Part shown: piece by piece, positions 5,101 to 23,699 of the stretch
How positions within the stretch are numbered: position 1 is the first letter of the stretch
Layout: each line of letters starts with the position of its first letter
NCBI GenBank assembly: GCA_947259915.1
Contig: CAMYOC010000023.1
Span: forward strand, 1-38,020
Length of the DNA: 38,020 nucleotides
Reading direction: 5' to 3'
Source: an uncultured Gammaproteobacteria bacterium
Lineage (GTDB): Bacteria; Pseudomonadota; Gammaproteobacteria; Steroidobacterales; XN24
Position numbers and translations under genes: made by a program
Notes under the pieces: model-generated
Told to the model about the DNA's origin: nothing
Seen by the model: the letters and a program-made list of their open reading frames with translations, nothing else
The model's database searches: none

Positions 5101-7281
5101 TCAGTATTCCAATGGGGGCCGCGGCAGATCGAGGCGATAGGTAAATGACAGACCGACCACGCTGACGTCATAGTCGGCGGCCGCCGCGCCCCAGGTCAGT
5201 ACGCCGGAGAGCGTGTCCGGCGCGGTGCCGTCCACATGCCAGTCGCTGCTGCGATAACGCTCATACAGCCATCCGCCACGCAGCTGCATCTGCGGGTTCA
5301 ATTCGTAAGTGACATCAAGCCGGGCGGTATTACGCTCCGAGCGGAATTTGGGGAAGCCACTGCCGACACCTGACTGCCTGACGTTCGTGCTGCCCTGAGA
5401 TTGTGCATAGGTGTAATCGAGTTCCAGACCCCAGCGCTGCGCGATGTTCTCCCAGCGAAAGCCCACGTTGGCGGCGTCGAAATCGTCATTGTTCTTGGCC
5501 CGCCAGTTGGGCGCGGCCGTATTGGGATCCACGTTGCTTTGTGCGCCGCGCTGCTTGTACGTCACCTGCTCGCTGGACAAGCCCAGAAACAAATGCACGT
5601 CGTCTGCAAACGCATAGCTGGCATCGGCAGCAATCGAATCACGATCGGCGTCGGTCAGACCGACGTCCGAGTTCTTGTAATCCTCGGTCCAGACATCCAG
5701 CTGCAGGCCGAGGCTGAGCCTGTCGGCCGGGCGTGCCTGCACTCGGACCTCGACGCCGTCGCGGTCACGGTCGGCCTCGTAGTACTTGTGCATCAGCGGG
5801 TTCTGCTCGAGCTTGATACCTGTCTGCGGGCGGTAGGTGGAACCATCGCGGCTCGCGGTCTGTCCCTTTATGTTCACATCGAAGGCGTTCGACGGTTTGA
5901 GCTTCAGCTTCGCCCAGTAGGTGTCCTCTTCGTTTTCGCTGACCTCTTGCAGATTCCGCTCGATCTTGTCGTAGTCGTAACCGATCGATCCCTTCAGCCG
6001 GCGGGTGAAGCGGTAGTCCGCCGCCAGGTCGAAATCGGTATCCTTGAAACCGTAGGGCCGATTCTCCACCGCCACGCCACCGGCGATGTTGTCCGCCAGT
6101 ACATAGTCATAGCTGTCGCGAGGACTCTTGTTGTCACGCTTGTTGTAGCGGAAATCACCGGTCAGCCGGAGACGCGACCACTCGGCGGAGGTTACGCGCA
6201 GGCTGTATTGCGTCAGGTCCACCTTGCCGTCGAAAGAACTGCGCGGCAGCGGCGTCCCGGCCAGGGCCGGGTTGATGGTGTACGGGAGGAAGCTGTCGTC
6301 CTGCTCGGACTGGCCCAGCGAGACGGTGCCCGAGGCGATGGTGCGCGGCGTGATGTTGACGGCACCTGAGAGGCTGACGTTATAGGACTTGTTGTCCGGC
6401 GCCTGAGCCATCCTGCCATCGTCCGGCCCGGTGAACGCGTTCTCCCACTGCAGGCTCAGATCCTTGTTGCTAAACCAGGAACCGAGATACGCCAATCGGA
6501 TCTGCCAGCGGTCGGCCGTATAGTTGATCCCGCCCTCGACTTCGTTGGTCTCGTAGTTTAGCGGCTGGATCAGTTCGGCCGCGCTGCCCAGGAACGTGCC
6601 CCAGGTCCGCCCTTTGCCTTCTTTGGTCTGGTAACGCCAGTCCACGTCAAAGCTCAGGTTCGGGCTGAACAGATACTCCGCGCCGAGATCCAGCGTCTCG
6701 CGATCCCAGCCCGGATCGAAGCCGCGCAGATCACTGGCCAGGTTGGTCATGCCGCCGGTGCCCCCGGCGCGGATCCAGTTGTCGGGCAGAATCAGTGGCG
6801 TGTCACCCAGCGGGCGATAGATGGTCTGGGTCGACTCGAGCAAATAGCGATACGGGAGCCGGTCGTAGCCCAGGTCGAGCATCCATTTGCCCTGATGCCC
6901 GACCTCCATGTCGTAGTCAAATGACTCCTGGCTGTAGCCAAAGCCTTCGATCTTCGCCGTGTAACCCTTGTCACCCCAGTATGTGATCTGCGGCGACAGA
7001 CCACCGATCACGCCGCTATTCTCATATCCGGTATAGCGACCGAACGCGGTTTCGCTGTCTGTGATGTAACCCGCGCTGGCGCCGATACTGCCGGTCCAGC
7101 CCTGGCTGAACTGACAGAATTTGCAGCTCCAGGTGGACGTGTCGGGCTTGCTCGTTTCGTCGCCGGCCGCCGCGCCGGCCATCATGATGGCGGCGGCTGT
7201 CGCCAGACCCAGCAGCATGCGGCGAGCCTGCGCTGCGCCGGACCGGGTCGTGAATTGTCTTTCCCGCGCTGGCCAGATCAT
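5101..7281 (-). CDS. mtrB: MtrB/PioB-family outer-membrane beta-barrel, decaheme-associated
   Basis: A 726-residue barrel that in this family sheathes a periplasmic decaheme cytochrome across the outer membrane, letting electrons pass to an external cytochrome. Visible signs: an N-terminal signal region (hydrophobic 22-40, cut near AAAG), a CXXC motif CKFC (Cys53/Cys56) like the one in Shewanella MtrB, about 600 residues of alternating amphipathic strands with many aromatic girdle residues (GYITDSETAFGRYTGYEN, YDVSVVGLSFTYRLDL), and a C-terminal aromatic residue (LEY) as in barrel insertion signals. The start codon lies 4 nt after the stop of the upstream decaheme gene, whose last codons supply the GAGG ribosome site, so translation is probably coupled. 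MtrB, PioB and MtoB cannot be separated by sequence alone; direction of electron flow is open. Confidence 0.93.
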   Translation of the reverse strand: MIWPARERQFTTRSGAAQARRMLLGLATAAAIMMAGAAAGDETSKPDTSTWSCKFCQFSQGWTGSIGASAGYITDSETAFGRYTGYENSGVIGGLSPQITYWGDKGYTAKIEGFGYSQESFDYDMEVGHQGKWMLDLGYDRLPYRYLLESTQTIYRPLGDTPLILPDNWIRAGGTGGMTNLASDLRGFDPGWDRETLDLGAEYLFSPNLSFDVDWRYQTKEGKGRTWGTFLGSAAELIQPLNYETNEVEGGINYTADRWQIRLAYLGSWFSNKDLSLQWENAFTGPDDGRMAQAPDNKSYNVSLSGAVNITPRTIASGTVSLGQSEQDDSFLPYTINPALAGTPLPRSSFDGKVDLTQYSLRVTSAEWSRLRLTGDFRYNKRDNKSPRDSYDYVLADNIAGGVAVENRPYGFKDTDFDLAADYRFTRRLKGSIGYDYDKIERNLQEVSENEEDTYWAKLKLKPSNAFDVNIKGQTASRDGSTYRPQTGIKLEQNPLMHKYYEADRDRDGVEVRVQARPADRLSLGLQLDVWTEDYKNSDVGLTDADRDSIAADASYAFADDVHLFLGLSSEQVTYKQRGAQSNVDPNTAAPNWRAKNNDDFDAANVGFRWENIAQRWGLELDYTYAQSQGSTNVRQSGVGSGFPKFRSERNTARLDVTYELNPQMQLRGGWLYERYRSSDWHVDGTAPDTLSGVLTWGAAAADYDVSVVGLSFTYRLDLPRPPLEY

Positions 7282-7285
7282 GCCG

Positions 7286-8260
7286 CTACCTCATCAGGTT
7301 CGCGCCAGACGGATGGTTCGACCCATGCACCTGGCTGTGACAATTCATACAGCTGCCGCCCAGCAGATATTGGGACGGATTCGGGTTGCCGGCCAGACCG
7401 GATGCCGTATACGGGATGCTCGGGTGCCCGGCCTGGGAATGGCAACTCTGACAGAGCAGCGGCGCAGTGCGTTTGAGCATACCGGCGTGGATCGTGCCGT
7501 GGGGCTCGTGACAGTTGCTGCAGTCTTCGGCCACCGGCGCGTGCTCCCATAGCAGCGGACCGCGCTTTTCCTGGTGACAGCCATAGCAGGTGTCGTTGAG
7601 CGTGTTCTTGACCAGCGCGAATTCGGCTGCCGAACCGTGCGGATTGTGGCAGTCGGTGCAGGCCATACGCCCCAGACGGATCGGATGGGCGTAGGGTTTT
7701 TGCGCGTTCGCCTTCTGCTCCAGATGACACGTATAGCAGACCGCCGCCTGAGTCTCGGGACGCAATACCGCCTGATGGGTGGCGTGGAGCTTATGGCAAT
7801 CGGCGCAGTTGGTGTCTTCCACGTCATGCACGCTGCCGGCCCAGTGCAGACCGACCTGCTGCTGATGACAGGTCATGCATTGCTGGTTGTGTTCGGCGGT
7901 ACTGGCGGTACTGGCCGAGCCCCAATACGGCATCGAGGGTCGGTCCTTGGCCGCCATGCCGCGCTTGAGCCGCTTGATGTGCTCGCCGCCCGGGCCGTGA
8001 CAGGCCTCACACTGGGTGTTGCCGTCGCCAAACGGCGTACGGTCGTCGGCGCGCTGTGCGTGTTTGGTGCTAAAAATCGCCGCGGTGACTTGATCAGCGT
8101 GACAACCGAGACAGGTGTTCGCGCCCTGCAGGCTGTAATCGTCCGTTACCGTATCCGCGGGCATCTCGGCGGCTTCGCCTTCGGCGCCGGAGAGCGGGGA
8201 AAACACCAGCAGGCTGAGAACGGAGGCGAATAAAAAAAGCCGTTTGTAGGACGCTCGCAT
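7286..8260 (-). CDS. mtrA: Decaheme c-type cytochrome, DmsE/MtrA family
   Basis: A 324-residue secreted cytochrome with ten CXXCH heme sites (CLGCH, CEACH, CMTCH, CADCH, CYTCH, CTDCH, CYGCH, CSNCH, CQSCH, CMNCH), matching MtrA (10 hemes, about 333 residues). The start at 8260 has AGAGGA 5 nt upstream; an in-frame extension to 8359 lacks a signal-like start. The N-terminus MRASYKRLFLFASVLSLLVF is a Sec signal peptide with a cleavage site near the SGAEGEAAE segment. The repeated CxxCH...HxxPHG pattern (CHNPHGS, CHEPHGT) is typical of the DmsE family. The protein should sit in the periplasm and insert into the MtrB barrel. It is the first gene of the unit ending with mtrB. No dmsAB-type reductase accompanies it, which favours an MtrA role over DmsE. 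Confidence 0.95.
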   Translation of the reverse strand: MRASYKRLFLFASVLSLLVFSPLSGAEGEAAEMPADTVTDDYSLQGANTCLGCHADQVTAAIFSTKHAQRADDRTPFGDGNTQCEACHGPGGEHIKRLKRGMAAKDRPSMPYWGSASTASTAEHNQQCMTCHQQQVGLHWAGSVHDVEDTNCADCHKLHATHQAVLRPETQAAVCYTCHLEQKANAQKPYAHPIRLGRMACTDCHNPHGSAAEFALVKNTLNDTCYGCHQEKRGPLLWEHAPVAEDCSNCHEPHGTIHAGMLKRTAPLLCQSCHSQAGHPSIPYTASGLAGNPNPSQYLLGGSCMNCHSQVHGSNHPSGANLMR

Positions 8261-8443
8261 GAATTCCTCTCGCCTCGGGGTCCGGGACGCAAAATCCGAT
8301 GTCAATCTACACCATCCGTATCCTACACGAAACCGGTGCCGATGCAGCCTCGAAGACACATCATCAGGCGCGGCAAGACGCCCCGGGTTCGGGGGATGAA
8401 TCGGGCGATGCCGGCAGTCACAAACCGGGCGTGCAAAAGAAAA

Positions 8444-8504
8444 CGGGCCGGGAGAATCCCGGCCCGAAAGCGGTTCTAAATGGGGCGCCCATTGCGGGCG
8501 CCCC
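8444..8504 (-). terminator. Tandem terminator hairpins downstream of the mtrC-like gene
   Basis: Read on the minus strand, the first hairpin is GGGGCGCCC/GGGCGCCCC (9 bp, 8482-8504) and the second CGGGCCGGGA/TCCCGGCCCG (10 bp, loop of 3, 8444-8466). TTTTCTTTT follows the second (complement of 8435-8443). They lie 12-72 nt past the mtrC-like stop, so the surface cytochrome is probably terminated or attenuated before mtrA-mtrB. The remaining 8261-8443 should hold the mtrA promoter, but no convincing hexamer pair is visible. Confidence 0.85.
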
Positions 8505-8515
8505 GGTTGTGGTTG

Positions 8516-10972
8516 TTACTGAGTAGGCCCGTGGTACAGGGTCGTGTCAAACGTGCTACCCGCACCATGGCAGACCGCGCAGGCTTCCTGACCGTTCGGC
8601 AATCCACCCACGCCTGGGGTGGCACCGATGATCGTGTCTTTCTGCACGCCCACCTGGCCGCCGTTGGACGCGAAGTGTCCCGCCGCCGCTGAACTGGTGT
8701 GGCAGGCACCGCAGGCCGCCGATGTCGGCGTGGTCGCGATGTCGTCCAGCCAGGTGTTGTTGCCACTGTCCGTTCCAGCGAGGTTGTCACCGGTGCTGAC
8801 GGCGCGTGCCGTCGGCCGGGCTGCGTTGTAGCCGCCCGGGATATGGCAGGCTTCGCAGATGGCGATGCCGCCCACGTCCCGCGCAATCGGATAGGTCACC
8901 TCATCAAACAGGCCGCCCGCCCACGTCGAGCTGCCGATATGGATGTTGTGAACCATGTATCCGAACTGGAAGCCCTCCTTTGGAAGCGGCGCGTCCTCGA
9001 TCTGCAGGTCGGCGTTGTGGCAGACCAGACAGATCTCGACGTTGCCATTGCGGTTGGAGCCGTGGAACTGCAGCTGCTTGTGGCAGGCGTTGCAGTTGTT
9101 ACTGTCGGCCTGGAATTCACGATCGCTGTCCGGATAGAACACCGCGCTGGTGGCCGCTGCCCGCTGGGTCGTCGGGTTACCGTCGTTGTCGGTTGCGAAC
9201 GCCGCGGGATGGCCGCCCAGGCCGATCATCACGTCGCCGGTGTAGTCGAGTGGCACCGGTGCGAAGTGATCGACCGTCCAGCTGCCGTCCGGGTTCTGCA
9301 CCAGCGACGGGGAGGCCTGGATCGCCGCCAGATACATCCGATGCGGATAGCCCGGATCTTCCACCACTTCCGGTCCGTTACCCCGGTCACGCAGACCCCA
9401 TGTCGTGCCGTCTTCCAGGCCGTTGTAGATATCGGCCGTGGCCCAGGCTACATAGAGGTTTAGTGAAGACGCTGGATCCGTGAACGACGGATTATCGCGA
9501 ATATTCCAGGCGGCGCCGCCGGGTGTGTCAACGCGGAAGGTGATCCGCGGCGTGTCACCCGGGTCGATGGGGCCACCGGCCGTGTCCGTCGCGTCGACGA
9601 TGGAGAGCACGAAGCCTTTTCCGAGCTCGTAACGGAAGCGCTGGCTGCCGTCCTCCGTGCTATGAACCGCCAGGGCCGGACCGGCGCCACCGATGGAGCC
9701 AAGATGGCAGGTCGCGCAGGAACCGTCAGCGGCAACTGCCGCGAAGCCACCGTCGGCACCGGCTGCACCGTGATCGAACTGATAGGTCGGCACGCCGGTG
9801 ACCGGATCCGGATTCGATGCGACCAGGCCATTGGCATGGCAGCCACCGCAGGCCGTAGCCGTGGCATATTCGTTCCACGCGTCGCCGTCCGGCGTTTCTG
9901 CGGACGCTTCATGACAGCTTTCGCAGAACAGCAGGTCCTGCGGATAGGTGACTTCGGAATAATCATGAATGAAGTCGCCATAGCCGTAGATGATGTACGG
10001 GACGCCACGATCCTCACCCGGATGGATCGAGTGCGCCAGGTACTTCATGTCGACCGACTCACCCGTGTCCTGATCGATCGTGCCCGGGTTGTGACAGGTC
10101 ACGCAGTATTCCACCGTGCGTCGCGGTCCGCCGTGCAGATCGAAGCGGTAGTGGCAGGCGGTACAGTTCGCGGTGTCGGCGATCAGGTTGGAACCCGGGT
10201 CGAGTACTTCGCCGGTCTCCGGCACGAAATCGTACACAGGATTATCAGGCGCCAGTATCTCGGCTTCGCCATTGAGGCGGATCTCGAGACCGACGCGATG
10301 GGGCAGGGTCGGTTCCCATGCCACCGCGATGGGATCGGTCACGTCGGCGACATCCGTGGCGAAGGTGTATTCGTACATGCCGCCGCCCAGTTCGACCAGG
10401 GTGCCCTGGCTGTCAGTCGTCGCCTGTACAGATTGCGGCAGCACGTTGGGGGTGGGGTTGGCATTCGCCGTCTCCACCCTATTCACGTAGCTCTGCCAAT
10501 AGGCCGGAAAGCCGTTTGCGGCAGGCAGCAATTTGACGAACGTGAACCACACCCTGCCCTCGGCGATTCCGAGCGCCGGGTTGCCGTGTGCGTCCTCGAC
10601 CATGAATGTCACGACCGGTGGGCTGGCCACCGTCACACCGGTGATCTCGGCGACCAGGCCACCGAGTTCCTCGATCTGCTCCTCGGTGAGGCCGCTGCCA
10701 TCACCGATGTCGATCGTGTCTCCGACAGCACGGCAGTCATCGACGTCGATGACGCCGTCACCGTTTGTGTCTTCATCCGGAAAGTCCGGAATACCGTTAC
10801 CGTTCAGGTCCCAGCATGCCAGACCGGCTGCACCGTCTGCTCCGTCTGCTCCGTCTGCTCCAGCCGCCCCGCGATCGCCGTCATCACCGCTACAACCAGC
10901 GATGCCGACAGCGAGGATACAAGCCGCGAGGAGCGTAAAAAGACGGGAGTTACCGTTCTTCAATGCGTCCAT
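8516..10972 (-). CDS. mtrC: OmcA/MtrC-family decaheme c-type cytochrome, surface lipoprotein
   Basis: An 818-residue lipoprotein cytochrome, the presumed cell-surface terminal reductase or oxidase. The start at 10972 gives a proper signal peptide (a Lys- and Arg-containing n-region, then a hydrophobic LLAACILAVGIAGC stretch) with lipobox IAGC (Cys27); the in-frame extension to 11056 would bury it. After Cys27 come a collagen-like GADGADGADGAAG stretch and an Asp/Asn-rich segment (LNGNGIPDFPDEDTNGDGVI) that looks calcium-binding. Ten CXXCH sites fall into two groups of five, at about 270, 290, 350, 375, 419 and 627, 648, 706, 754, 798. Beta-rich stretches lie before each group, as in the MtrC four-domain architecture. 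Both OmcA and MtrC fit; the symbol is given by context with mtrA and mtrB. Confidence 0.93.
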   Translation of the reverse strand: MDALKNGNSRLFTLLAACILAVGIAGCSGDDGDRGAAGADGADGADGAAGLACWDLNGNGIPDFPDEDTNGDGVIDVDDCRAVGDTIDIGDGSGLTEEQIEELGGLVAEITGVTVASPPVVTFMVEDAHGNPALGIAEGRVWFTFVKLLPAANGFPAYWQSYVNRVETANANPTPNVLPQSVQATTDSQGTLVELGGGMYEYTFATDVADVTDPIAVAWEPTLPHRVGLEIRLNGEAEILAPDNPVYDFVPETGEVLDPGSNLIADTANCTACHYRFDLHGGPRRTVEYCVTCHNPGTIDQDTGESVDMKYLAHSIHPGEDRGVPYIIYGYGDFIHDYSEVTYPQDLLFCESCHEASAETPDGDAWNEYATATACGGCHANGLVASNPDPVTGVPTYQFDHGAAGADGGFAAVAADGSCATCHLGSIGGAGPALAVHSTEDGSQRFRYELGKGFVLSIVDATDTAGGPIDPGDTPRITFRVDTPGGAAWNIRDNPSFTDPASSLNLYVAWATADIYNGLEDGTTWGLRDRGNGPEVVEDPGYPHRMYLAAIQASPSLVQNPDGSWTVDHFAPVPLDYTGDVMIGLGGHPAAFATDNDGNPTTQRAAATSAVFYPDSDREFQADSNNCNACHKQLQFHGSNRNGNVEICLVCHNADLQIEDAPLPKEGFQFGYMVHNIHIGSSTWAGGLFDEVTYPIARDVGGIAICEACHIPGGYNAARPTARAVSTGDNLAGTDSGNNTWLDDIATTPTSAACGACHTSSAAAGHFASNGGQVGVQKDTIIGATPGVGGLPNGQEACAVCHGAGSTFDTTLYHGPTQ
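10837..10863 (-). repeat. In-frame 9-bp tandem repeat in the mtrC-like gene
   Basis: About three direct copies of a 9-bp unit (CCGTCTGCT on the plus strand) encode the repeated Gly-Ala-Asp of the collagen-like stretch after the lipobox. Because the unit is a multiple of three, slippage would change linker length without breaking the frame. Confidence 0.7.
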
Positions 10973-11111
10973 TTTTGACTGCCCCCAAGTAAGAGAAAAG
11001 TGCCCAAAGAGGGCGCCACGATCCGGCGTTTTGATCGGAGCGTCCGAATTCACCACAACCGCCCAAACGATCCGAACCGCCGCTGGACCGCGAACGGTCC
11101 TTTACAGATCG

Positions 11112-11130
11112 AATGAGAATGATTCTTATT
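11112..11130 (-). promoter_or_regulatory. Fur-type iron box upstream of mtrC-like gene
   Basis: AATGAGAATGATTCTTATT is a 19-bp near-palindrome. Its core TGAGAAT-G-ATTCTTA (11114-11128) fits the 7-1-7 Fur consensus TGATAAT-N-ATTATCA with few changes. It lies about 140 bp before the mtrC-like start. If the promoter is at the FNR-type site below, the box would cover about +23 to +41, a repressing position. Binding is inferred. Confidence 0.6.
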
Positions 11131-11187
11131 AATCATCGCTAGTGTTTGCTTCATAAAGGTTTTTAGCCCAACGGGACGCAAAGACAA

Positions 11188-11201
11188 ATGACGTAGATCA
11201 A
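11188..11201 (-). promoter_or_regulatory. FNR/ANR/DNR-type site upstream of mtrC-like gene
   Basis: On the minus strand TTGATCTACGTCAT matches the 14-bp TTGATC-N3-GTCAA style of FNR/ANR/DNR sites except for the last base. A TAAAAA hexamer (complement of 11160-11165) is centred 32 bp downstream, exactly where a -10 belongs for a class II activator site at -41.5. That predicts a start near 11153. CRP would need TGTGA half-sites, which are absent. Confidence 0.5.
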
Positions 11202-11277
11202 TTTGGGCCCGTATTTAAGTACAAATACCTAAGGACCACGCCACGACTGGCTTTGAAGCACGGCGCAAGAAGGCAAA

Positions 11278-11310
11278 ACAAAAAAAAACCGGTGACGATG
11301 CCACCGGTTT
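11278..11310 (-). terminator. Rho-independent terminator of the monoheme cytochrome gene
   Basis: AAACCGGTG (11286-11294), loop of 7, CACCGGTTT (11302-11310): a 9-bp stem which on the minus strand runs into T-rich sequence (complement of the A-run 11278-11288). It lies 57 nt past the cytochrome stop and separates that gene from the mtrC-like gene. Outside this, the Fur/FNR elements and the leader, 10973-11366 shows nothing else. Confidence 0.88.
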
Positions 11311-11366
11311 CTCGCGTTTGCGCAGGGTCAGTAAGGATATTGCCGTCGCAATCGATCCGCGTCGAG

Positions 11367-11636
11367 CTATTGAGCGTAAAATGCGGCCACGTTGGCCACG
11401 TCCTCCTCGCTCAGTACTGCGATATCGACTTTCCCCTTGTGGTGCTTCGAGTCTTTTGCCTCGACGATCCACACGCTGATATCCGCCGCGCTTTCCCCCG
11501 AGAAATCATCGGGCTCATGACAGTCCGAACAGTTCTCGTTATAGATCGCTTCCCCGGCTGCAGGGTCCCCTGCCGTTGCCGATGCGGTCCAGCACAAGGC
11601 TGTCGCCACCGCCATTGCCATCATCATTCGCTTCAT
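11367..11636 (-). CDS. Small periplasmic monoheme cytochrome c lacking a distal methionine
   Basis: An 89-residue protein; the ATG at 11636 is used because the longer frame begins with TTG and AGAGGG sits 8 nt upstream of this ATG. A signal peptide covers residues 1-22 (MKRMMMAMAVATALCWTASATA). One heme site, CSDCH (Cys36, Cys39, His40), is followed by a short class I-like fold ending SEEDVANVAAFYAQ, the usual C-terminal helix. No methionine occurs after residue 8, so the normal Met axial ligand is absent; His65/His66 in KDSKHHKGKV sit where the Met loop would be. It could carry electrons to the MtrA-like protein. It has its own terminator, so it is not in the mtrC transcript. Confidence 0.88.
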   Translation of the reverse strand: MKRMMMAMAVATALCWTASATAGDPAAGEAIYNENCSDCHEPDDFSGESAADISVWIVEAKDSKHHKGKVDIAVLSEEDVANVAAFYAQ

Positions 11637-11701: not shown

Positions 11702-11733
11702 AGGGGTACTGACCGCAATCCGGGTGACTCCGA

Positions 11734-12618
11734 TCAAGAGGACTCCGCAGCGACCACCCCGCGCACGTACTCGGAAAACGCGGGACCGAATTCCTCGTGC
11801 TTCATCCCAAAATGCAGGCCCGCCTGCAGATAGCCCAGCTTGCTCCCGCAGTCAAAACGCAGACCTTCGAAACGATAGGCGCGGACCGGCCGCTCGACGA
11901 GCAGCGCCGCAATGGCGTCAGTGAGCTGGATCTCGCCACCTGCCCCGCGTTCGATCGTCTCCAGATAGTCGAATACCTGGGGCTCCAGAATGTAGCGGCC
12001 GACGACGGCGAGATTCGACGGAGCGTCCGCCGGATCCGGTTTCTCGACCATCCCGCGCAAACGCCAGACCCCATCATCGAGCGGATCGCCGTCGACAATA
12101 CCGTATTGATCGGTCTGATCAGCAGGGATCGGCTGGACCCCGATCACGCTGCCACCGGTCTCCTCATAGAGCTGGCGCATCTGTTCCAGACACGGCGTCT
12201 CGGCGTCGATGAGATCGTCAGCCAGATGGACAAAGAACGGCTGATTGCCGACCACCGCGCGAGCGCACAGCACCGCATGACCCAGACCCAGCGGCTCGCC
12301 CTGGCGCAGATAGATGCAGTTGACGTTGTCCGGGACCAGCGAGTGCACGACATCCAGCAACTCGGTCTTGTGCTTTTCCCGCAGCAGCTCCTCAAGCTCT
12401 AAATCAGAGTCGAAGTGATCTTCGATCGCGCGCTTGTGACGACCGGTGATAAACACGAGGTTGGTGGCGCCGGCAGCTATCGCCTCCTCCACCGCGTACT
12501 GGATCAGCGGCTTGTCCACGACCGGCAGCATCTCCTTGGGGCTGGCCTTGGTCGCGGGCAAAAAACGCGTGCCCTTGCCGGCGACGGGGAACACCGCATA
12601 ACGGATAGCTTCTGGCAC
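11734..12618 (-). CDS. galU: UTP-glucose-1-phosphate uridylyltransferase
   Basis: A 294-residue cytoplasmic enzyme making UDP-glucose from UTP and glucose-1-phosphate, for exopolysaccharide, LPS and trehalose-type pathways. The GTG at 12618 ([16 protein letters not shown]) is preferred: GGAG lies 7 nt upstream and GalU proteins normally begin a few residues before AVFPVAG. An ATG at 12654 would add 12 mostly basic residues. Motifs: the nucleotide-binding [20 protein letters not shown] loop, [25 protein letters not shown], the catalytic-site ADDLID, the GMVEKP segment and [12 protein letters not shown]. It is the last gene of the minus-strand run and 170 bp from the comEA-like gene, so it probably has its own promoter. 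Confidence 0.94.
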
Positions 12619-15155: not shown

Positions 15156-16832
15156 TCAGGATTCGTCCTGACCGGAAATCTGCTCTTTCAGCAGATCGCC
15201 CAGACTGGTCCCGGTGGTGGCCTCGGAGGTGCGGTAATTCTGCACTGCCACCGCCTCTTCGTAGACCTCTTTGGCCTTGATCGAGAGGCTGATGGCACGA
15301 CTCTTACGGTCGATGCCCACAAACCGTGCCTCGATATCGTCGCCGGGCTTGAGCACCATGCGCGCGTCTTCGACGCGATCCCGGGCGAGCTCGGAAGCGC
15401 GCAGATGGCCTTCGATACCGCCCAGATCCACGGTGGCGCCGCGGGCGTCGACCTCGGTGACCGTACCCTTGACGATGCTGCCCTTGGGATGCTCGGCCAG
15501 GAATGCGGAGAGCGGGTCGCGATCCATCTGCTTGATGCCCAGCGAAATGCGTTCGCGTTCCGCATCGATAGACATCACCACGGCTTCGATCTCGTCGCCC
15601 TTCTTATAGTTGCGCACGGCCTCCTCACCCGGGATGTCCCAGGAGATGTCGGACAGATGCACCAGACCGTCGATGCCGCCATCGAGACCGATGAAGATGC
15701 CGAAGTCGGTGATCGACTTGATCTGGCCCGACACCTTGTCGCTGCGATTATGCGTGGCGGCGAACTCGGCCCAGGGGTTGGACTGACACTGCTTGACGCC
15801 CAGCGAAACCCGGCGGCGCTCTTCGTCGATATCCAGCACCATGACTTCGACTTCGTCACCCATCTGCACAACCTTTGACGGGCTCACGTTCTTGTTGGTC
15901 CAGTCCATCTCGGAGACGTGCACCAGACCTTCCACGCCGTCGTCGATCTCGACGAAACAGCCGTAGTCGGCGATGTTGGTGACCTTGCCGAAGAGCCGGC
16001 TGCCCGGCGGATAACGACGCGCCAGATCCTGCCACGGATCGTCACCGAGCTGCTTCATGCCCAGCGAGACGCGGCAGCGCTCACGATCGAACTTGAGGAT
16101 CTTGACCTGCACTTCGTCGCCGACGTTGACCACTTCGGACGGGTGCTTGACTCGCTTCCAGGCCATATCGGTGATGTGTAGCAGACCGTCTATCCCACCC
16201 AGATCGACAAAGGCGCCGTAGTCGGTCAGGTTCTTGACGATACCCGGCATCGTCGCGCCTTCCTGGAGATTCTCCATCAGCGCTTCGCGTTCGGCGCTGT
16301 ACTCCTCTTCCACCACGGCGCGGCGGGAGACGACCACGTTATTACGCTTGGGATCCAGCTTGATGACTTTGAACTCGAGGACCTTGCCCTCGAGATAAGA
16401 AGGATCGCGCACCGGCCGCACATCGACCAGGGAGCCGGGCAGGAACGCCCGTACCAGATCGAGTTCGACCGTGAAGCCACCCTTTACGCGTCCATTGATC
16501 ACGCCCTTGACGATCTCGCCCTTGTCGAAGGCTTCTTCGAGCACCGACCAGGTGCGGGCGCGCTTTGCCTTGTCGCGGGACAGGCGGGTCTCACCGAAAC
16601 CGTCCTCGACTGCGTCGAGAGCGACTTCGACCTCGTCACCGACAGCGACTTCGAGCTGGCCCTGCTCGTCGCGGAATTGCTCGGCAGGGATGACCGCCTC
16701 GGACTTGAGGCCGGCATTGACGATGACCACGTCCTCGTTTACGTCGACGACAAGGCCAGTGATAATCGCGCCAGGCTTGAACGGCTGGCTGGCGAGACTC
16801 TGTTCAAAAAGTTCAGCAAAAGATTCAGACAT
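15156..16832 (-). CDS. rpsA: 30S ribosomal protein S1
   Basis: A 558-residue protein, the usual S1 length, which helps load mRNA with structured or weak ribosome sites onto the 30S subunit. Six S1/OB repeats are visible: residues about 20-90, 105-175, 190-260, 275-350, 360-435 and 450-520. Repeats 3-6 carry the hallmark pattern of G-x-V-x-x-I-x-D-(Y/F)-G-x-F-(V/I), as in [17 protein letters not shown] and [17 protein letters not shown]. The N-terminus [13 protein letters not shown] matches the S2-binding part. GAGGA lies 9 nt before the ATG. It follows cmk by 139 bp, the normal cmk-rpsA order. Confidence 0.97.
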
Positions 16833-16913
16833 GTTGATTAAATCCTCGGTCTTTCGACCAGGGCCCTGTTAATACCGCCATCGCCATCCATGACTGGCGG
16901 GTCAAAGATAAAT

Positions 16914-16935
16914 GGCTCTGCCTCCGTGCAGAGCC
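16914..16935 (-). other. Hairpin in the cmk-rpsA intergenic leader
   Basis: GGCTCTGC (16914-16921), a 6-nt loop, GCAGAGCC (16928-16935). On the minus strand the loop reads ACGGAG, Shine-Dalgarno-like, and ATTTATCTTT follows. It lies about 80 nt before rpsA. It may be a weak cmk terminator or part of the structured rpsA leader used for S1 autoregulation in E. coli. The role is inferred. Confidence 0.4.
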
Positions 16936-16971
16936 ACCACATACAACGCTCCAAAACAGCGGAGCCATTTT

Positions 16972-17679
16972 TCAGTACTTACGCTTGCTCTCTGCCAGAC
17001 AGGCCCGCAGGTGTTCGAGCACCCGCTGCACTACCTGGTCGATGTTCATCGCCGTGGTGTCGAGCACCAGCGCATCGTCTGCCGCCAGCAGCGGCGACAC
17101 CTCGCGTTTTCGATCCCGCTCGTCGCGCTCGGCGATCTCCGTACAAAGACGCACAAGATTAGCATCAAAACCCTTCTCTATCAACTGCTTATACCGGCGC
17201 TGGGCACGGGCTTCCGGACTCGCGGTCAGAAACACCTTGGAGGTCGCATCCGGGAAAATCACGGTGCCCATATCGCGGCCGTCGGCCACCAGCCCCGGCA
17301 GGCGCCGGAATCGGTGTTGTAGCGCCACCAGGGCCGCCCGCACCAGCGGGATCGCGGCGACTTTGGAGGCCTCGTTGCCGCAGGTCTCGCTGCGAATCTC
17401 GCCGGTCACGTCGCGGCCTTCCAGCAGCACCTGCTCACCGCCGCCCTCGTCAGCGCCAAATTCGACCTCCAGACCCGCGGCCAGCCGCGCCAGCGCCGGA
17501 CCGTCATCCAGGGCCACGCCGTGGCGACCGGCGGCCACCGCCGTCAATCGATACAGAGCGCCACTATCCAGCAATCTCCAGTTCATCTGCTCCGCCACCC
17601 GCCGGCAGATGGTGCCCTTGCCGGACCCGCTGGGGCCGTCAACCGCCAGCACCGGGACGATCTGATCAGGGGCGTTCAC
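16972..17679 (-). CDS. cmk: Cytidylate kinase
   Basis: A 235-residue nucleoside monophosphate kinase that phosphorylates CMP and dCMP with ATP. The P-loop GPSGSGKGTICRR is at about 16-28, followed by LLDSGALYRLTA (base recognition), GRDVTGEIRS and DGRDMGTVIFPDA (CMP-binding Asp/Arg) and the lid ERDERDRKREVSPL. Translation starts at a GTG that overlaps the aroA stop as GTGA, so the two genes are translationally coupled. Length is normal. Confidence 0.95.
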   Translation of the reverse strand: MNAPDQIVPVLAVDGPSGSGKGTICRRVAEQMNWRLLDSGALYRLTAVAAGRHGVALDDGPALARLAAGLEVEFGADEGGGEQVLLEGRDVTGEIRSETCGNEASKVAAIPLVRAALVALQHRFRRLPGLVADGRDMGTVIFPDATSKVFLTASPEARAQRRYKQLIEKGFDANLVRLCTEIAERDERDRKREVSPLLAADDALVLDTTAMNIDQVVQRVLEHLRACLAESKRKY

Positions 17680-19022
17680 GCGAGGTCCTCCAGCGCAAAT
17701 CCCGCAGATCGGGCCAATTCGGCAAATCCGGGAAAGGAGGTCCCGACGTGGCTCACGTCGTTGATCCTGATCGGTCCTTGCGCCACCAGTCCCGCCACGG
17801 CCATCGACATCGCCACCCGGTGATCGCCGGCGCTGTCGACCGCGCCCGGACCGATGGACCCGCCCTCAATATCGATACCGTCCTCGGTCTCATGGACCCG
17901 CACACCGACGGCGGCGAGGGCGCGAGCCATGCTCGCAATACGGTCGGACTCCTTGACCCGCAGCTCGGCGGCGCCACGCACGCGGGTGATCCCCTGCGCC
18001 GCCGCCGCCGCCACAAACAACACCGGGAATTCGTCGATGGCCAGCGGCACCAGATCCGGCGGCACGTCGATGCCCTCGAGCAAGCTGCGCTCCACCCAGA
18101 GATCCGCGACCGGCTCGGCGCCGAGCTGACGGGGTTTGTGGATCGCGATCCGGCCGCCCATGGCGCGGAGGATGTCGAGCAGACCGATCCGCGTCGAGTT
18201 TATACCAACGTCACGGATCAACATGCCCTCCCCGGCCCGCAGCAACCCGGCGACGATAAAAAACGCGGCCGAAGAGAAATCCCCGGGCACGCCGATGCGG
18301 CCGCCGTTCAGCACGCACGGCCCGGTGATCGATGCACACTGCTGATCGAAATCGACAGGCGCGCCGAGAGACTGCAGCATCCGTTCCGTATGATCCCGCG
18401 ACACCGCAGGCTGGCGCACGACCGTGGTGCCTCGGGCGGACAGCCCGGCCAACAGGATCGCTGACTTCACCTGGGCGCTGGCCACAGGCATCTCGTAGTC
18501 GATGGCTGTAAGCGCGTTGCCACCGGCGAGTTCAACCGGGGGACGACCAGCGTCGGTCCGGATGTCAGCCCCCATCTGCCGCAACGGTGCGGCGATCCGC
18601 TCCATCGGACGGGATCTCAGCGAGGCATCACCGGTCAACTCGGCGCGGATACCGAGACCGGCGAGCAGACCGGTCAGCAGACGGATCCCGGTCCCCGAAT
18701 TCCCCAGATCCAGCGTTGTCCTTGGATTGCGCAGACCACGCGGTCCGGGCCCGATCACGCGGAGTCGATCCACGCCCAGCGTCTCTATGCGTACGCCCAG
18801 CGCTTCAACCGCGGCGCGCGTAGCCCGGCAATCCGCGCTGTCGAGAAAGCCCTCCACCTCCAGTGGACCCGCGGCCACGGCGCCGAGCAACAGCGCCCGG
18901 TGGGAGATCGACTTGTCTCCCGGGACTTTCAAATGCCCTTCGATCCGCTCTACCGGTGAGGTGACCCAGCCGCTGCATCCAGTCTCGGCGATCTCGACCC
19001 GTGAAGGGCTTTCAATCCCCAT
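17676..19022 (-). CDS. aroA: 3-phosphoshikimate 1-carboxyvinyltransferase (EPSP synthase)
   Basis: A 448-residue shikimate-pathway enzyme joining phosphoenolpyruvate to shikimate-3-phosphate. The ATG at 19022 overlaps the hisC stop by 11 bp and has GAGG 6 nt upstream; the open frame continues upstream inside hisC but without homology. Motifs: GDKSISHRALLLG (PEP and S3P binding), LGNSGTGIRLLTGLLAG, GDASLRSRPMERI, ASAQVKSAILLAGL, VSRDHTERML, the catalytic AIDEFP Asp and ELRVKESDRI. The ASAQVKS and RDHTE blocks group it with Pseudomonas and class II-like forms. Glycine occupies the position (GNSGT) where tolerant class II enzymes have Ala, so glyphosate sensitivity is expected by that residue. 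tyrA, often fused or adjacent here in pseudomonads, is absent. Confidence 0.94.
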   Translation of the reverse strand: MGIESPSRVEIAETGCSGWVTSPVERIEGHLKVPGDKSISHRALLLGAVAAGPLEVEGFLDSADCRATRAAVEALGVRIETLGVDRLRVIGPGPRGLRNPRTTLDLGNSGTGIRLLTGLLAGLGIRAELTGDASLRSRPMERIAAPLRQMGADIRTDAGRPPVELAGGNALTAIDYEMPVASAQVKSAILLAGLSARGTTVVRQPAVSRDHTERMLQSLGAPVDFDQQCASITGPCVLNGGRIGVPGDFSSAAFFIVAGLLRAGEGMLIRDVGINSTRIGLLDILRAMGGRIAIHKPRQLGAEPVADLWVERSLLEGIDVPPDLVPLAIDEFPVLFVAAAAAQGITRVRGAAELRVKESDRIASMARALAAVGVRVHETEDGIDIEGGSIGPGAVDSAGDHRVAMSMAVAGLVAQGPIRINDVSHVGTSFPGFAELARSAGFALEDLA

Positions 19023-20172
19023 TGCCAGCCTCGCTGTGCGCACCGCTGGCAGCGTCCAGCACCTCGCCCAGAGCCTGCAGCAGCCGGTCGTTTTCCGGCG
19101 GCGTGCCAATGCTGATGCGCAGATGGCGGTCGAGGCCGTAATTCGCGACCGGCCGCACGATCACCGACTTGCGCAGCAGCGCGTCATAGACCGGCATAGC
19201 AGGCTGTCCCATGTCCACCAGCACAAAGTTGCCGGCGGAGGGCACGCAGTGCAGCCCAAAACCGGCCAGCGCCGTTTGCACCCGGTCGCGTTCGGCGGCG
19301 TTCATCTCGACTGAATGGGCAAGATGCTGGCGGTCTTCAAGGGCGGCAAGGGCTGCTACGTTGGCCATCAGATTGACATTAAAGGGCTGACGAATACGGT
19401 CGAGAATTTCAGCGATCGCCGGCGCCGAGACGGCGTAGCCGATACGCAAGCCGGCCAGCCCGAACGCCTTGGAGAAGGTGTGCGTCACGATCAGGTTGGG
19501 GAAGCGATCCAACCAGTCGACGCAGTCGGGATACTCCGGGTCGTCCATGTATTCGCCATAGGCCTGATCCACCACCAGCAGCGCGTGCTGCGGCAATCCT
19601 TCGATGAAGGTGCGCAGCGGCTCAGCGCGCACCCAGGTGCCGGTAGGATTATTCGGGTTGGCGATAAATATCAGACGCGTGCGCTCACTGATCAACCCGG
19701 CCATCGCGCTCAGGTCATGGCCATAGGGGCTGTCGCTATCTGCCGGCAGCGCGGGCGCCACGCAGGCCGTGGCGCCCACCGCCTGGATCGCGATCGGATA
19801 GACCGCGAACGCATATTGGGAATGGATCGCTTCGAGCGAATCCTGCAGGAAGGCCTCGGCGATCATCACCAGCACATCATTGGAGCCATTGCCCAGGGTG
19901 ATGCACTCCGGTTCGACGCCGTGGCGCCGCGCCAGGGCCTGCTTGAGCTCGAAGCCACCGCCGTCCGGATAACGCGAGAGTTCGCCATCCGGTATGTCGC
20001 GCAGCGCTTCGAGGACCCGATTGCCGGGGCCCAGCGGGTTCTCGTTCGAGGCCAGCTTGATGATGTTGGTGACGCCGTATTCGCGTTCCAGCTCGCTGAT
20101 CGGCTTGCCGGGCTGGTACGGCTTGAGGCCCCGAACTCCAGGGGCGGCAAGGCGCAGATAGGGATTACTCAT
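19012..20172 (-). CDS. hisC: Histidinol-phosphate aminotransferase
   Basis: A 386-residue PLP aminotransferase. In the family it converts imidazole-acetol phosphate to histidinol phosphate; copies between pheA and aroA (often called hisC2) may also transaminate aromatic 2-oxo acids. Visible are the N-terminal PGVRGLKPYQPGKPISE, KLASNENPLGP, LGNGSNDVL (cofactor phosphate), ANPNNPTGT, DQAYGEY, the PLP Lys in THTFSKAFGLAGLRIGY and the Arg in RISIGTP. It sits 49 bp after pheA and overlaps aroA. The location suggests a role in phenylalanine and tyrosine formation, but no his genes are here to test that. Confidence 0.93.
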   Translation of the reverse strand: MSNPYLRLAAPGVRGLKPYQPGKPISELEREYGVTNIIKLASNENPLGPGNRVLEALRDIPDGELSRYPDGGGFELKQALARRHGVEPECITLGNGSNDVLVMIAEAFLQDSLEAIHSQYAFAVYPIAIQAVGATACVAPALPADSDSPYGHDLSAMAGLISERTRLIFIANPNNPTGTWVRAEPLRTFIEGLPQHALLVVDQAYGEYMDDPEYPDCVDWLDRFPNLIVTHTFSKAFGLAGLRIGYAVSAPAIAEILDRIRQPFNVNLMANVAALAALEDRQHLAHSVEMNAAERDRVQTALAGFGLHCVPSAGNFVLVDMGQPAMPVYDALLRKSVIVRPVANYGLDRHLRISIGTPPENDRLLQALGEVLDAASGAHSEAGNGD

Positions 20173-20221
20173 GGCGTCCTCTCCTCGGTCGCCGGCTCAG
20201 CTCAAGATGACTGGACCGAGT

Positions 20222-21322
20222 TTAAAGGATCGCACAGGGATATGAGCCAAGCACCCGGAACAGGGAGGCAGCCACCTCCAGGTCCTTCAATGCGCCGGCG
20301 ATCTTTGGATCCTCCGCATGCCCTTCCACGTCGACAAAGAACACATAATCCCATTTGCCGCGATTGGACGGACGGGACTCGATCCGGGTCATGCTGATCT
20401 TGTGTTTGGCGAGCGGGAACAGGATCTCGTGCAGCGCGCCGGCCTTGTGCCGGGCCGCCAACAACAAAGACGTCTTGTCGCGACCGCTGGGCGGGAACAG
20501 ATCGCGGCCAATGACGAGAAACCGCGTGGTGTTGTCCGGCCGGTCTTCGATGTTCGCCATCAACACTTTCAGACCGTAGACCTCGGCGGCGGCCTCGCCA
20601 GCGATAGCGGCGACACCGTCCTCATCGCGGGCCAGCCGCGCGGCCTCGGCATTGCTGTTGACCGCCACGCACTCCGCATCCGGCAGCTGCTGTTCCAGCC
20701 AGGCGCGGCATTGTGCCAGCGACTGCTGATGGGAATAGACCCGCTTGATGCTCGCCAGATCTTCAGCCTTGCCCAGCAGGTGCTGACGTATACGCAGCTC
20801 TACCTCGCCGCAGATCCTCAGCGGTGAAGTCATGAACATATCGAGCGTGTTGTTGACCGTGCCCTCGGTGGAATTCTCCACCGGCACGATGCCGAAATCC
20901 GCCACCCCGGATTCAACCTCGTGGAACACCTCATCGATCGACGCCAGCGACAAGGCTCTGATCGAATGGCCGAAGTGCTTGAGCACCGCGGCCTGGGTGA
21001 ACGTGCCTTCCGGACCGAGGAACGCGACCTTCAGCGGCTCCTGTTGTGCCAGACAGGCCGACATGATCTCGCGGAACAGACGCACCATTTCCTCATCCCG
21101 CAGCGGACCCTGGTTGCGTTCCACCACCTTGCGCAGGACCTGCGCCTCGCGCTCGGGGCGGTAAAAGTCGCGCGGCCGTGCAGCCTCGCCCAGCTTGCTG
21201 GAGCCGACCGCCTGGGCGGCACGCGCACGCTCGCTGATCAGGCTTTGTATCTGTTCATCCAGACTATCGATCCGGGCGCGGATGGCGTCCAGATCAGGCT
21301 CGTTTGGCTTGGCATCGGTCAT
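20222..21322 (-). CDS. pheA: Bifunctional chorismate mutase/prephenate dehydratase (P-protein)
   Basis: A 366-residue enzyme taking chorismate to prephenate and on to phenylpyruvate. Residues 10-95 are an AroQ-type mutase (DLDAIRARIDSLDEQIQSLI, with the active-site Arg and Lys). Residues 98-275 are the prephenate dehydratase (FLGPEGTFTQAA, VPVENSTEGTVNNTLD, YSHQQSLAQCRAWL, and the catalytic TRF in DNTTRFLVIG). Residues 285-360 are an ACT domain (GALHEILFPLAKHKISMTRIESRPS), the usual phenylalanine feedback site with the ESRP motif intact. It starts 11 bp after serA ends and lies in the serC-serA-pheA-hisC-aroA run. Confidence 0.96.
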   Translation of the reverse strand: MTDAKPNEPDLDAIRARIDSLDEQIQSLISERARAAQAVGSSKLGEAARPRDFYRPEREAQVLRKVVERNQGPLRDEEMVRLFREIMSACLAQQEPLKVAFLGPEGTFTQAAVLKHFGHSIRALSLASIDEVFHEVESGVADFGIVPVENSTEGTVNNTLDMFMTSPLRICGEVELRIRQHLLGKAEDLASIKRVYSHQQSLAQCRAWLEQQLPDAECVAVNSNAEAARLARDEDGVAAIAGEAAAEVYGLKVLMANIEDRPDNTTRFLVIGRDLFPPSGRDKTSLLLAARHKAGALHEILFPLAKHKISMTRIESRPSNRGKWDYVFFVDVEGHAEDPKIAGALKDLEVAASLFRVLGSYPCAIL

Positions 21323-21333
21323 TGCGGCGGATC

Positions 21334-22500
21334 TCAGATGACACGCACCGTGAGAACACCTTCGATGCCGGCGATCTGGGCACGCGTCGTCTCCGGCACC
21401 TCGCCTTCGACGTCGACCAGCGTGTAGGCGATCTCACCGCGGGACTTGTTCAGCAGGTCGATGATGTTGAGCCCGGCCTCGGCCAGTCGGGTCGAAATCT
21501 GACCGACCATATTCGGCACATTGAGGTTCGAGATACTGATCCGCTGGCCCTCGGCGCGCGGCATCAACACCTCCGGGAAGTTGACCGAATGGCGGATATT
21601 GCCGTTTTCGAGATATTCACGCAGGTTCTCAGCCACCATAGCGGCGCAGTTCTCCTCCGCCTCTCCGGTCGAGGCACCCAGATGGGGCAACGCAGTGACC
21701 CTGGGGTGATTGCGGATCTGGTTATTGGGGAAATCGGTCACGTAGGCGGCAAGATGGCCCGTATCCAGCGCGGCCAGCACCGCATCGTCGTCGACGATGC
21801 CGCCGCGAGCAAAATTGAGCAGAATGCCGCCCGGCGGCATCAGAGCCAGACGTTCCGCGTTGACCAGCTGTCGCGTGTGATCGTTGAGCGGCACGTGCAG
21901 GGTGATGAAATTGGCCCGGCTGAAAAGGTGATCCAGGGTCGTCGCCTGTTCGATAGACGAAGACAGCTGCCAGGCGCGCTGCACCGTCAACTGTGGGTCA
22001 AAGCCGATCGCTTTCATGCCCAGCGCTACCGCCACGTTGGCCACTTCGCCGCCGATTGCGCCCAGACCGACCACGCCCAGGGTCCGGCCGGGAAGTTCAA
22101 AGCCCACGTATTTCTTTTTGCCGGCCTCTACCAGCTTACTCACCGCCGCGTCATCGCCCTCGAGCTCGCTGACATAGTGCCAGCCCTGGCAAATATTGCG
22201 GGCGCCCAGCAATAGCCCGGCGACGACCAACTCCTTGACCGCGTTGGCGTTGGCGCCGGGGGCGTTGAACACCGGGATGCCGCGCCGGGTCATGGTGTCG
22301 ATCGGGATGTTGTTGACACCGGCGCCGGCGCGAGCGACGGCCTTGACGCTGCCCGGAATATCCATGGTGTGCATATTGGCCGAGCGCACCAGGACCGCGT
22401 CCGGATGACCGATCTCGGAGGCGACTTCATAGCGCTCACGCGGCAGCCTCCTCAGGCCTTCGACGGCGATATGGTTCAGGGTCAGGATCTTGAAGCTCAT
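21334..22500 (-). CDS. serA: D-3-phosphoglycerate dehydrogenase
   Basis: A 388-residue NAD-dependent 2-hydroxyacid dehydrogenase that begins serine synthesis. Signs: the Rossmann loop VVGLGAIGGEVANVAVALGMKAIGFDP, the substrate-binding RSANMHT and NNIPIDTMTRRGIPVFN segments, the catalytic Arg/Glu/His triad (NFARGGIVDDDAVL, LPHLGASTGEAEENCA), and a C-terminal ACT domain (about 315-388: NVPNMVGQISTRLAEAGLNI) for serine feedback. It lies between serC and pheA, a position that is empty in the Pseudomonas version of this cluster, giving a joint serine and phenylalanine operon. Confidence 0.94.
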   Translation of the reverse strand: MSFKILTLNHIAVEGLRRLPRERYEVASEIGHPDAVLVRSANMHTMDIPGSVKAVARAGAGVNNIPIDTMTRRGIPVFNAPGANANAVKELVVAGLLLGARNICQGWHYVSELEGDDAAVSKLVEAGKKKYVGFELPGRTLGVVGLGAIGGEVANVAVALGMKAIGFDPQLTVQRAWQLSSSIEQATTLDHLFSRANFITLHVPLNDHTRQLVNAERLALMPPGGILLNFARGGIVDDDAVLAALDTGHLAAYVTDFPNNQIRNHPRVTALPHLGASTGEAEENCAAMVAENLREYLENGNIRHSVNFPEVLMPRAEGQRISISNLNVPNMVGQISTRLAEAGLNIIDLLNKSRGEIAYTLVDVEGEVPETTRAQIAGIEGVLTVRVI

Positions 22501-22582
22501 GGGTCTCTACCTGCAGCCAGATTCGGCATCGCGCGATGCGATTCTGTGATTATGCCGCGTCGCAGCATGTATAGATATGGCT

Positions 22583-23665
22583 TTATCCGTGGCGACGCTC
22601 GAACTCCGCCATGAAATCGACCAGCGTCCGCACGCCCGCCAGCGGCATGGCGTTATAGATACTGGCGCGCATGCCACCGACAGAACGGTGACCTTTGAGA
22701 TTGGTCAATGCTGCCGCACGCGCTTCGTCGAGAAAAGTCGCGTCCAGCTCCGGTTTCGCCAGCGTAAACGGCACGTTCATCCACGAGCGGCAGTCCTTGC
22801 GGACCGGATTCGCATAGAAGTCGGAACTGTCGATGGCACCGTAGATGAGCTCGGCCTTGTCCCGATTGATCTCGCCCATGGCCTCGAGACCGCCCCGCTC
22901 CCGCAGCCAGCCGAACACGAGTCCGGCGATATACCAGGTGTAGGTGGGCGGCGTGTTGAGCATCGAGCCCGCGGCGGCCATCGGCGCATAAGAGAGCATG
23001 GTCGGCGTGGCTGCCCGGGCCCGGTCTACCAGGTCGCCGCGCACGATGACGATGGTCAAACCGGCCGGACCGATATTCTTTTGTGCGCCCGCATAGATCA
23101 CCCCGAACTTCGATACATCCAGCGGTCGGGACAGGATCGTCGAGGACATGTCCGCCACCAGCGGTACGTCGCCACAGTCGGGGATGGTGTGGAATTCCAC
23201 GCCACCGATGGTCTCGTTCGGGGTGTAATGCAGATAGGCCGCGTCATCGCGCAGCGCCCACGTAGACGGATCCGGGATCTCGGTGAATCCGCCGTCGGCG
23301 GCGCTGGCCGCCGCGCGCGCATCACAAAAACGCTGCGCTTCCGCCAGCGCTTTTTTTGACCAGCTGCCGGTCAACAGATAGTCGGCGGCCGATGTCTGCT
23401 CGGCCAGGTTGAGGGGAACCGCGCCAAATTGCGTGGTGGCGCCGCCCTGAACGAACAGCACTTTGTAGTCCTCCGGGATCTGCAGCAGCGCGCGCAGATC
23501 GGACTCTGCGCGCTCGGCGATGCCGATGAACTCCTTACTACGGTGACTGATCTCCATCACCGACATACCGCAGCCTTGCCAGTCGGTGAGTTCCTCCCTG
23601 GCCTGCTCGAGAACCTCGAGCGGCAGCGCTGCCGGGCCGGCGCTGAAATTAAACACCCGTGCCAT
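22583..23665 (-). CDS. serC: Phosphoserine aminotransferase
   Basis: A 360-residue PLP enzyme making 3-phosphoserine (and 4-phosphohydroxythreonine for vitamin B6). The start at 23665 ([15 protein letters not shown]) has GGAG 5 nt upstream and matches the conserved SerC N-terminus; the longer open frame runs into the gyrA end. Motifs: [39 protein letters not shown], the PLP Lys in [16 protein letters not shown], and the C-terminal [16 protein letters not shown]. It is separated from gyrA by only 34 bp and from serA by 82 bp. Confidence 0.96.
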
Positions 23666-23699
23666 GATTGCTCCGTGATCTAGGGTTGGATTCTGGTGC

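Follow-up and report, generated by a model that had tools for sequence, protein, structure and literature searches.

The window analysed here, a 38,020-nucleotide stretch of contig CAMYOC010000023.1 from an uncultured gammaproteobacterium (source assembly 3.45 Mb, 54 contigs, 93.8% complete), carries clustered mtrC, mtrA and mtrB genes for a predicted extracellular electron transfer conduit of the MtrCAB kind. Its central features are:

5101..7281, minus strand: mtrB, an outer-membrane barrel of the MtrB/PioB family, 726 amino acids, with N-terminal CKFC
7286..8260, minus strand: mtrA, a periplasmic decaheme c-type cytochrome of the DmsE/MtrA family, 324 amino acids, ten CXXCH
8516..10972, minus strand: mtrC/omcA-type gene for a decaheme lipoprotein, a predicted surface protein of 818 amino acids, ten CXXCH
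10733..10972, minus strand: leader and stalk of the mtrC product (residues 1-80), with signal peptide, lipobox Cys, collagen-like G-x-y run and a CWDLNGNG...EDTNGDG...DC module

MtrB matched PF11854 (479.8 bits, cut-off 23; 1.9e-143), TIGR03509 (462.7 bits, cut-off 240.05) and the Shewanella baltica barrel 6r2q_B (8.7e-92), with whose WSCKGC its N-terminal WSCKFC aligns. MtrA, read from the ATG at 8260 to the stop at 7286 and preceded by GAGAGG as a possible ribosome-binding site, matched TIGR03508 (277.9 bits, cut-off 192.2) and 6r2q_A (7.5e-78). The OmcA/MtrC-type protein (ATG 10972, stop 8516, lipobox IAGC) matched TIGR03507 with 406.9 bits (cut-off 209.3). For MtrA, MtrC and the monoheme protein described below, the mechanical open reading frame starts are longer than the starts used, which affects no result. 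Neither the family matches nor the numbers of hemes can be put down to chance. The sequence tests all confirm the locus as encoding a conduit with all three parts, as a preliminary description of this DNA had proposed: family models, ten CXXCH each in MtrA and MtrC, lipobox and barrel are all in agreement. The surface subunit, described there as OmcA/MtrC, does belong to that family, but its predicted fold is OmcA-like rather than MtrC-like.

The stalk of the mtrC product is 53-72% identical to the stalks of proteins that are otherwise unrelated to it (27-33%). The beginning of the module, expressed as a strict DNA pattern, was matched at three sites in the genome, all in multiheme lipoproteins: mtrC itself, an octaheme of the OTR type on contig C46 (411.1 bits to TIGR04315, cut-off 375) and another octaheme on contig C48. 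Among these three proteins the stalk region is 66-68% identical and the remainder, at 27-29%, is unrelated. A regular expression requiring the lipobox yielded 15 stalk carriers in seven genomes of the family, all of them multiheme and some incomplete at the ends of the fetched stretch or at masked bases. The module was present in 34, and the collagen-like run in 107, of the best 120 MtrC relatives, and no stalk-module gene was found in the 80 named loci in which such genes were sought. Two proteins with the module (P0158, P0175) belong to PF09459, presumably ethylbenzene-dehydrogenase-like, and lack CXXCH. Near an OTR-type octaheme, an eight-heme protein (L027:5979-7256) was seen with a Multi-haem_cyto (PF13447) match and weak similarity to hydrazine dehydrogenase.

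Upstream of mtrC lies a promoter layout with the following elements:

11188..11201, minus strand: FNR-like box TTGATCTACGTCAT, a conserved block in the leader alignment
11160..11165, minus strand: -10-like TAAAAA, 29 nucleotides from the centre of the FNR-like box
11112..11131, minus strand: Fur-like box, 18/20 to a gammaproteobacterial consensus

The FNR-like box appears to sit at the distance from the -10 element that is typical of class II FNR sites, and the Fur-like box, which begins 70 bp downstream of the first base of the FNR-like box, was not equalled in any of 1000 shuffles. When five leaders, including one of an OTR gene, were aligned, no stretch of unchanged letters was longer than AATTGA, which lies within the FNR-like block. 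When an FNR-like site scoring at least 8 and a Fur-like site scoring at least 13 were required at a spacing of 68-74, the pair was found at 11 of the 15 stalk genes of the seven family genomes and at none of 207 other genes; dinucleotide shuffling produced it once in 1500 trials. A relaxed setting (Fur-like at least 12, spacing 60-82) gave 12/15 against 0/207, comprising all seven OTR octahemes, all three second ten-heme genes, two of four genes of MtrC type and not the single C48 octaheme. Across 196 genomes of the order, a strict version of the pattern matched eight times in seven genomes (its reverse never), but it had been written after four family sites were seen, and for those genomes the search adds the absence of further sites. 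Two matches lie in the source genome (mtrC and the OTR octaheme), one in each of the relatives G003 and G005 (in both the second ten-heme gene) and four elsewhere; none was found in G001, G002, G004 or G006, where the boxes are less exact. In a broader set, an FNR-like site of at least 9 stands before 17 genes of mtrC type out of 75, compared with 4 out of 293 other genes. The pair was absent at the other heme genes examined, namely those for the hexaheme, the PdsA-like protein, the trihemes and an HAO-like octaheme. An Rfam scan returned a tRNA at 770-842 only, and hence no match to a known RNA element within the 5' leader. An imperfect palindrome GTATTTGTACTTAAATAC occupies window positions 11211-11228, immediately upstream of the FNR-like box, with a similar stretch in G003.

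The genome encodes a regulator of FNR type (38% to E. coli FNR) that has the cluster cysteines, CxxCxxxxxC and one further Cys, and the recognition helix, ETVSR; three Fur-family matches were also found. The promoter layout and stalk of the decaheme lipoprotein thus recur on unrelated multiheme lipoproteins, and we consider it probable that the conduit passes respiratory electrons outward, from the periplasm to extracellular acceptors, which may be Fe(III), Mn(IV) or others. MtrA would thread the MtrB barrel and pass its electrons on to the OmcA-type protein, which its stalk would keep on the outer side. In the absence of oxygen, active FNR would turn on mtrC through a class II contact at -41.5. 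A repressor site usually lies just downstream of the transcription start; Fur carrying Fe(II) would bind at about +22 to +42 relative to the predicted start and most probably slow expression while the cell is rich in iron. Judging from the shared layout, mtrC and the unrelated cytochromes are likely co-induced by lack of oxygen and by iron.

The preliminary description held that the direction of flow could not be read from sequence. This is only partly so: we lean towards outward flow because of the FNR-like sites upstream of mtrC here and in some relatives, the MtrA tree and the lack of any RuBisCO match in the source genome. Inward flow, with extracellular Fe(II) or Mn(II) being oxidised or a partner's electrons being taken up in the manner of MtoAB or PioAB, seems unlikely. 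In its favour, artificial settings exist in which MtrCAB was driven in the oxidising direction, and the authors of a survey infer no direction for most species (PMC8805035). Moreover, RuBisCO is present in the relatives G002, G003 and G005, which counts against outward flow at the level of the family. The cluster here, however, contains an MtrC-type subunit, which MtoAB/PioAB clusters lack, and its FNR-like sites point to anoxia. In the MtrA tree, the window sequence groups with that of G003 (100/99) inside a clade of 45 rows (98/97), 39 of which have an MtrC-type gene in the locus; it stands apart from the single MtoA-like row and from S. baltica, although deep support is weak and the tree holds no named MtoA or PioA reference.

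It is about equally improbable that the conduit and the other stalk cytochromes serve mainly to reduce Fe(III) for iron supply, with Fur repression lifted in shortage. At 11/15 stalk genes the Fur-like box follows closely on the predicted start, which is what such a role would suggest, given where repressor sites are usually found. Ten-heme proteins, however, are costly in iron, the sharing of this promoter layout by an octaheme of the OTR type speaks for respiration, and the mtr genes of Shewanella oneidensis fall under iron depletion (PMC2667191, in the text available). A DmsEF-type use, in which the conduit feeds a surface dimethyl sulfoxide reductase, is most improbable, for although MtrA matches the family named DmsE, an MtrC-type terminal cytochrome is present and the scan of window proteins showed no molybdopterin reductase (no search for DmsA was made outside the window), in keeping with the earlier statement that the window holds no dmsAB-type enzyme.

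As noted in the preliminary description, the window encodes no CymA-like quinol oxidase, and a PF03264 search of the rest of the assembly likewise found no tetraheme CymA, only a hexaheme protein (28.2 bits, cut-off 24.1) and an octaheme below the cut-off. That NapC-type hexaheme, on contig C28, and a PdsA-like diheme on contig C40 (149.3 bits to the PdsA model, below the cut-off of 330) are candidates only, by sequence, for feeding the conduit; quinol electrons might pass through them to MtrA. A PdsA-sized diheme occurs in 34 and a CymA-sized tetraheme in 18 of 84 related MtrA loci, a set that counts the window itself, contains two duplicate pairs and is in large part made up of truncated loci; the window locus has neither. 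Within about 6 kb of the hexaheme gene lie genes for a small lipoprotein and for what we take to be an asparaginase/isoaspartyl peptidase; in G003, the same two genes are near a CbcL-like and NapC-type pair. A CbcL-like feeder was considered for the source genome and rejected, with no matches there (G000) or in G005, while near full-length matches exist in G001, G003, G004 and G006. At three loci (L187:5358-8981, L189:6208-9799 and L033:14488-17873), some adjoining mtrCAB, a protein with 11 hemes and a cytochrome-b561 part lies beside a five-heme NapC-type protein; we take the former to be CbcL-like from its architecture, by likeness to ImcH/CbcL.

Several observations weigh against outward respiration under a shared promoter and stalk. 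First, the stalk module is not specific to cytochromes. A database search with residues 1-88 returned 110 proteins, 96 with the strict module; at least four heme motifs are present in 68 of these and none in 28, so that a stalk exclusive to cytochromes is ruled out and the module is, by sequence, a general stalk, here used by cytochromes. G001 also has a heme-free lipoprotein with a collagen-like run and no CWD module, and in G001, G004 and G006 both the stalk module and the boxes are missing from the genes of mtrC type. Second, the pair was first spotted at the window mtrC, and the strict pattern is post hoc to the sites in G003, G005 and the octaheme gene of the source genome. The Fisher values are thus too strong and the counts overstate independence, because the rule was derived from the window gene and orthologues have a common ancestry. 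Third, four of the 15 stalk genes fail the strict pair: the C48 octaheme of the source genome has an FNR-like box only, one mtrC-type gene of G002 has neither box and another has FNR 8 and Fur 11 at a spacing of 82, and a G003 octaheme reaches Fur 12. Fourth, mtrA has no FNR-like or Fur-like boxes and lies behind a terminator-like hairpin, so that the promoter layout does not account for the control of mtrAB. The link between hexaheme and conduit is also weak, because the hexaheme gene (like the PdsA-like gene) is found in G005, which has no mtrA match. Finally, the canonical fur gene (L203, contig C24 near 34939) has no open N-terminus in the assembly; a frame change separates its start region from the rest, and some of the N-terminal sequence normally present is missing, which may be an assembly error or a real loss. 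Fur as a brake is further questioned because in Shewanella piezotolerans WP3 a Fur box at omcA is reported with positive control (PMC3790847, accessible text), and the fall of the S. oneidensis mtr genes under iron depletion (PMC2667191) also bears on the sign of Fur.

With these points in mind, promoter, leader and stalk could form a single 5' cassette to which various cytochrome heads have become attached. More tentatively, we suggest that a mobile cassette, in which a two-input promoter (FNR and Fur) would be followed by the leader of a lipoprotein and by a collagen-like stalk that binds calcium, might have been swapped onto OmcA-type, second ten-heme and OTR heads, giving one surface-wiring regulon that would be installed only when oxygen is absent and iron(II) is scarce. 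If the common promoter and stalk are borne out, there would be a sequence rule predicting which cytochromes of these bacteria work at the cell surface, and when; extracellular respiration would be tied to oxygen and iron via one operator layout; and regulation and surface display would have moved jointly between unrelated electron-transfer proteins. A literature search found no report in print of a shared FNR-like/Fur-like promoter and stalk linking a conduit to unrelated multiheme lipoproteins.

The remaining features of the region are:

8444..8466, minus strand: terminator-like hairpin between mtrC and mtrA, a pattern match only
11283..11313, minus strand: terminator-like hairpin 3' of the monoheme gene and before mtrC, a pattern match only
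11367..11636, minus strand: gene for a monoheme c-type cytochrome of 89 amino acids, one CXXCH, ATG 11636, stop 11367
11724..11737, minus strand: weak FNR-like site TTGATCGGAGTCAC, 5' of the gene for the monoheme protein

The order given earlier (mtrC, terminator, mtrA, mtrB, with a monoheme gene upstream) was reproduced, the terminator being a hairpin pattern; such hairpins are hardly enriched across the region (6 against 4.7 in shuffles, standard deviation 2.5). The monoheme protein matches PF13442 and PF00034, both slightly under the cut-off. The corresponding genes of G003 and G005 showed no such FNR-like site. The window protein has no Met after CXXCH, whereas the G003 and G005 homologues have an earlier Met, which rules out a family without Met after the motif. 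In class I cytochromes Met is the usual heme ligand, and H-K-G occurs in three of four homologues near its usual position. A His-ligated, low-potential heme is possible for the window protein, to judge from its sequence.

In G003 the gene order is identical, flanked by a CoA-ligase-like gene and one that we take to be galU-like, with a second ten-heme lipoprotein gene in addition. G006 has mtrC-mtrA-mtrB adjoining the galU-like gene and no monoheme gene. In G005 (assembly 80% complete), the galU site (L191:6496-9723) holds the monoheme gene and the second ten-heme stalk lipoprotein gene; searches of that genome for mtrA found nothing, and those for mtrC produced nothing of full length, only two matches to the stalk and a further one of 38 residues, mtrB not having been searched for. 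This is perhaps a natural site without the conduit. Retention of the monoheme gene there rules it out as a conduit-specific part and makes it doubtful that it is, as had been suggested, the conduit's own small cytochrome. The pseudomonad-like synteny noted before fits the order rpsA, aroA, hisC, pheA, serC, gyrA (window 15156-26264). An MtrA match was obtained in 14 of 39 genomes searched, the source genome included, that in G021 being weak and partial. Among the best 120 of 544 surface-protein relatives, the nearest with a name are gammaproteobacterial metagenome-assembled genomes (MAGs; 81-83%), and the named species are of Lentisalinibacter (54-57%), which NCBI places in the Woeseiaceae.

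The earlier remark that the system is best known from Shewanella undersells its spread. According to the available text, MtrCAB has been published for 148 species (PMC8805035) and for Woeseiaceae sediment MAGs, where it was interpreted as iron reduction (PMC12175321); the bare conduit is therefore not new. The system described here shares with the Woeseiaceae MtrCAB and the survey groups the same conduit and broad lineage, and Group 6 of the survey has a periplasmic monoheme adjoining mtrCAB; the accessible portions of both accounts, however, make no mention of the stalk module or the promoter pair. With Shewanella MtrCAB (S. baltica 6r2q; S. oneidensis) it shares the three subunit families, the ten hemes of MtrA and surface subunit, the lipobox and a barrel with N-terminal CXXC. 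It differs in its surface subunit, which is predicted to be OmcA-like and has a collagen-like stalk with the CWD..DC module, and in that no tetraheme CymA was found in the source genome. The C46 octaheme scores above the cut-off for the OTR (tetrathionate reductase family) octahemes, but it is a lipoprotein with an mtrC-like stalk and promoter layout. As for regulation, Fur boxes, sometimes together with Crp boxes, are reported at Shewanella iron-reduction genes (PMC3790847, PMC2667191), resembling the layout seen here; the partner site here is instead FNR-like, at a near-fixed spacing, and cytochrome genes of unrelated kinds share the pair. In strain MR-1, CRP sites lie at -61.5 (omcA) and -60.5 (mtrC) (PMC4417206, available text), in contrast to the class II spacing of the FNR-like site in our case, and where Fur acts positively in WP3, we propose that it may act as a brake.

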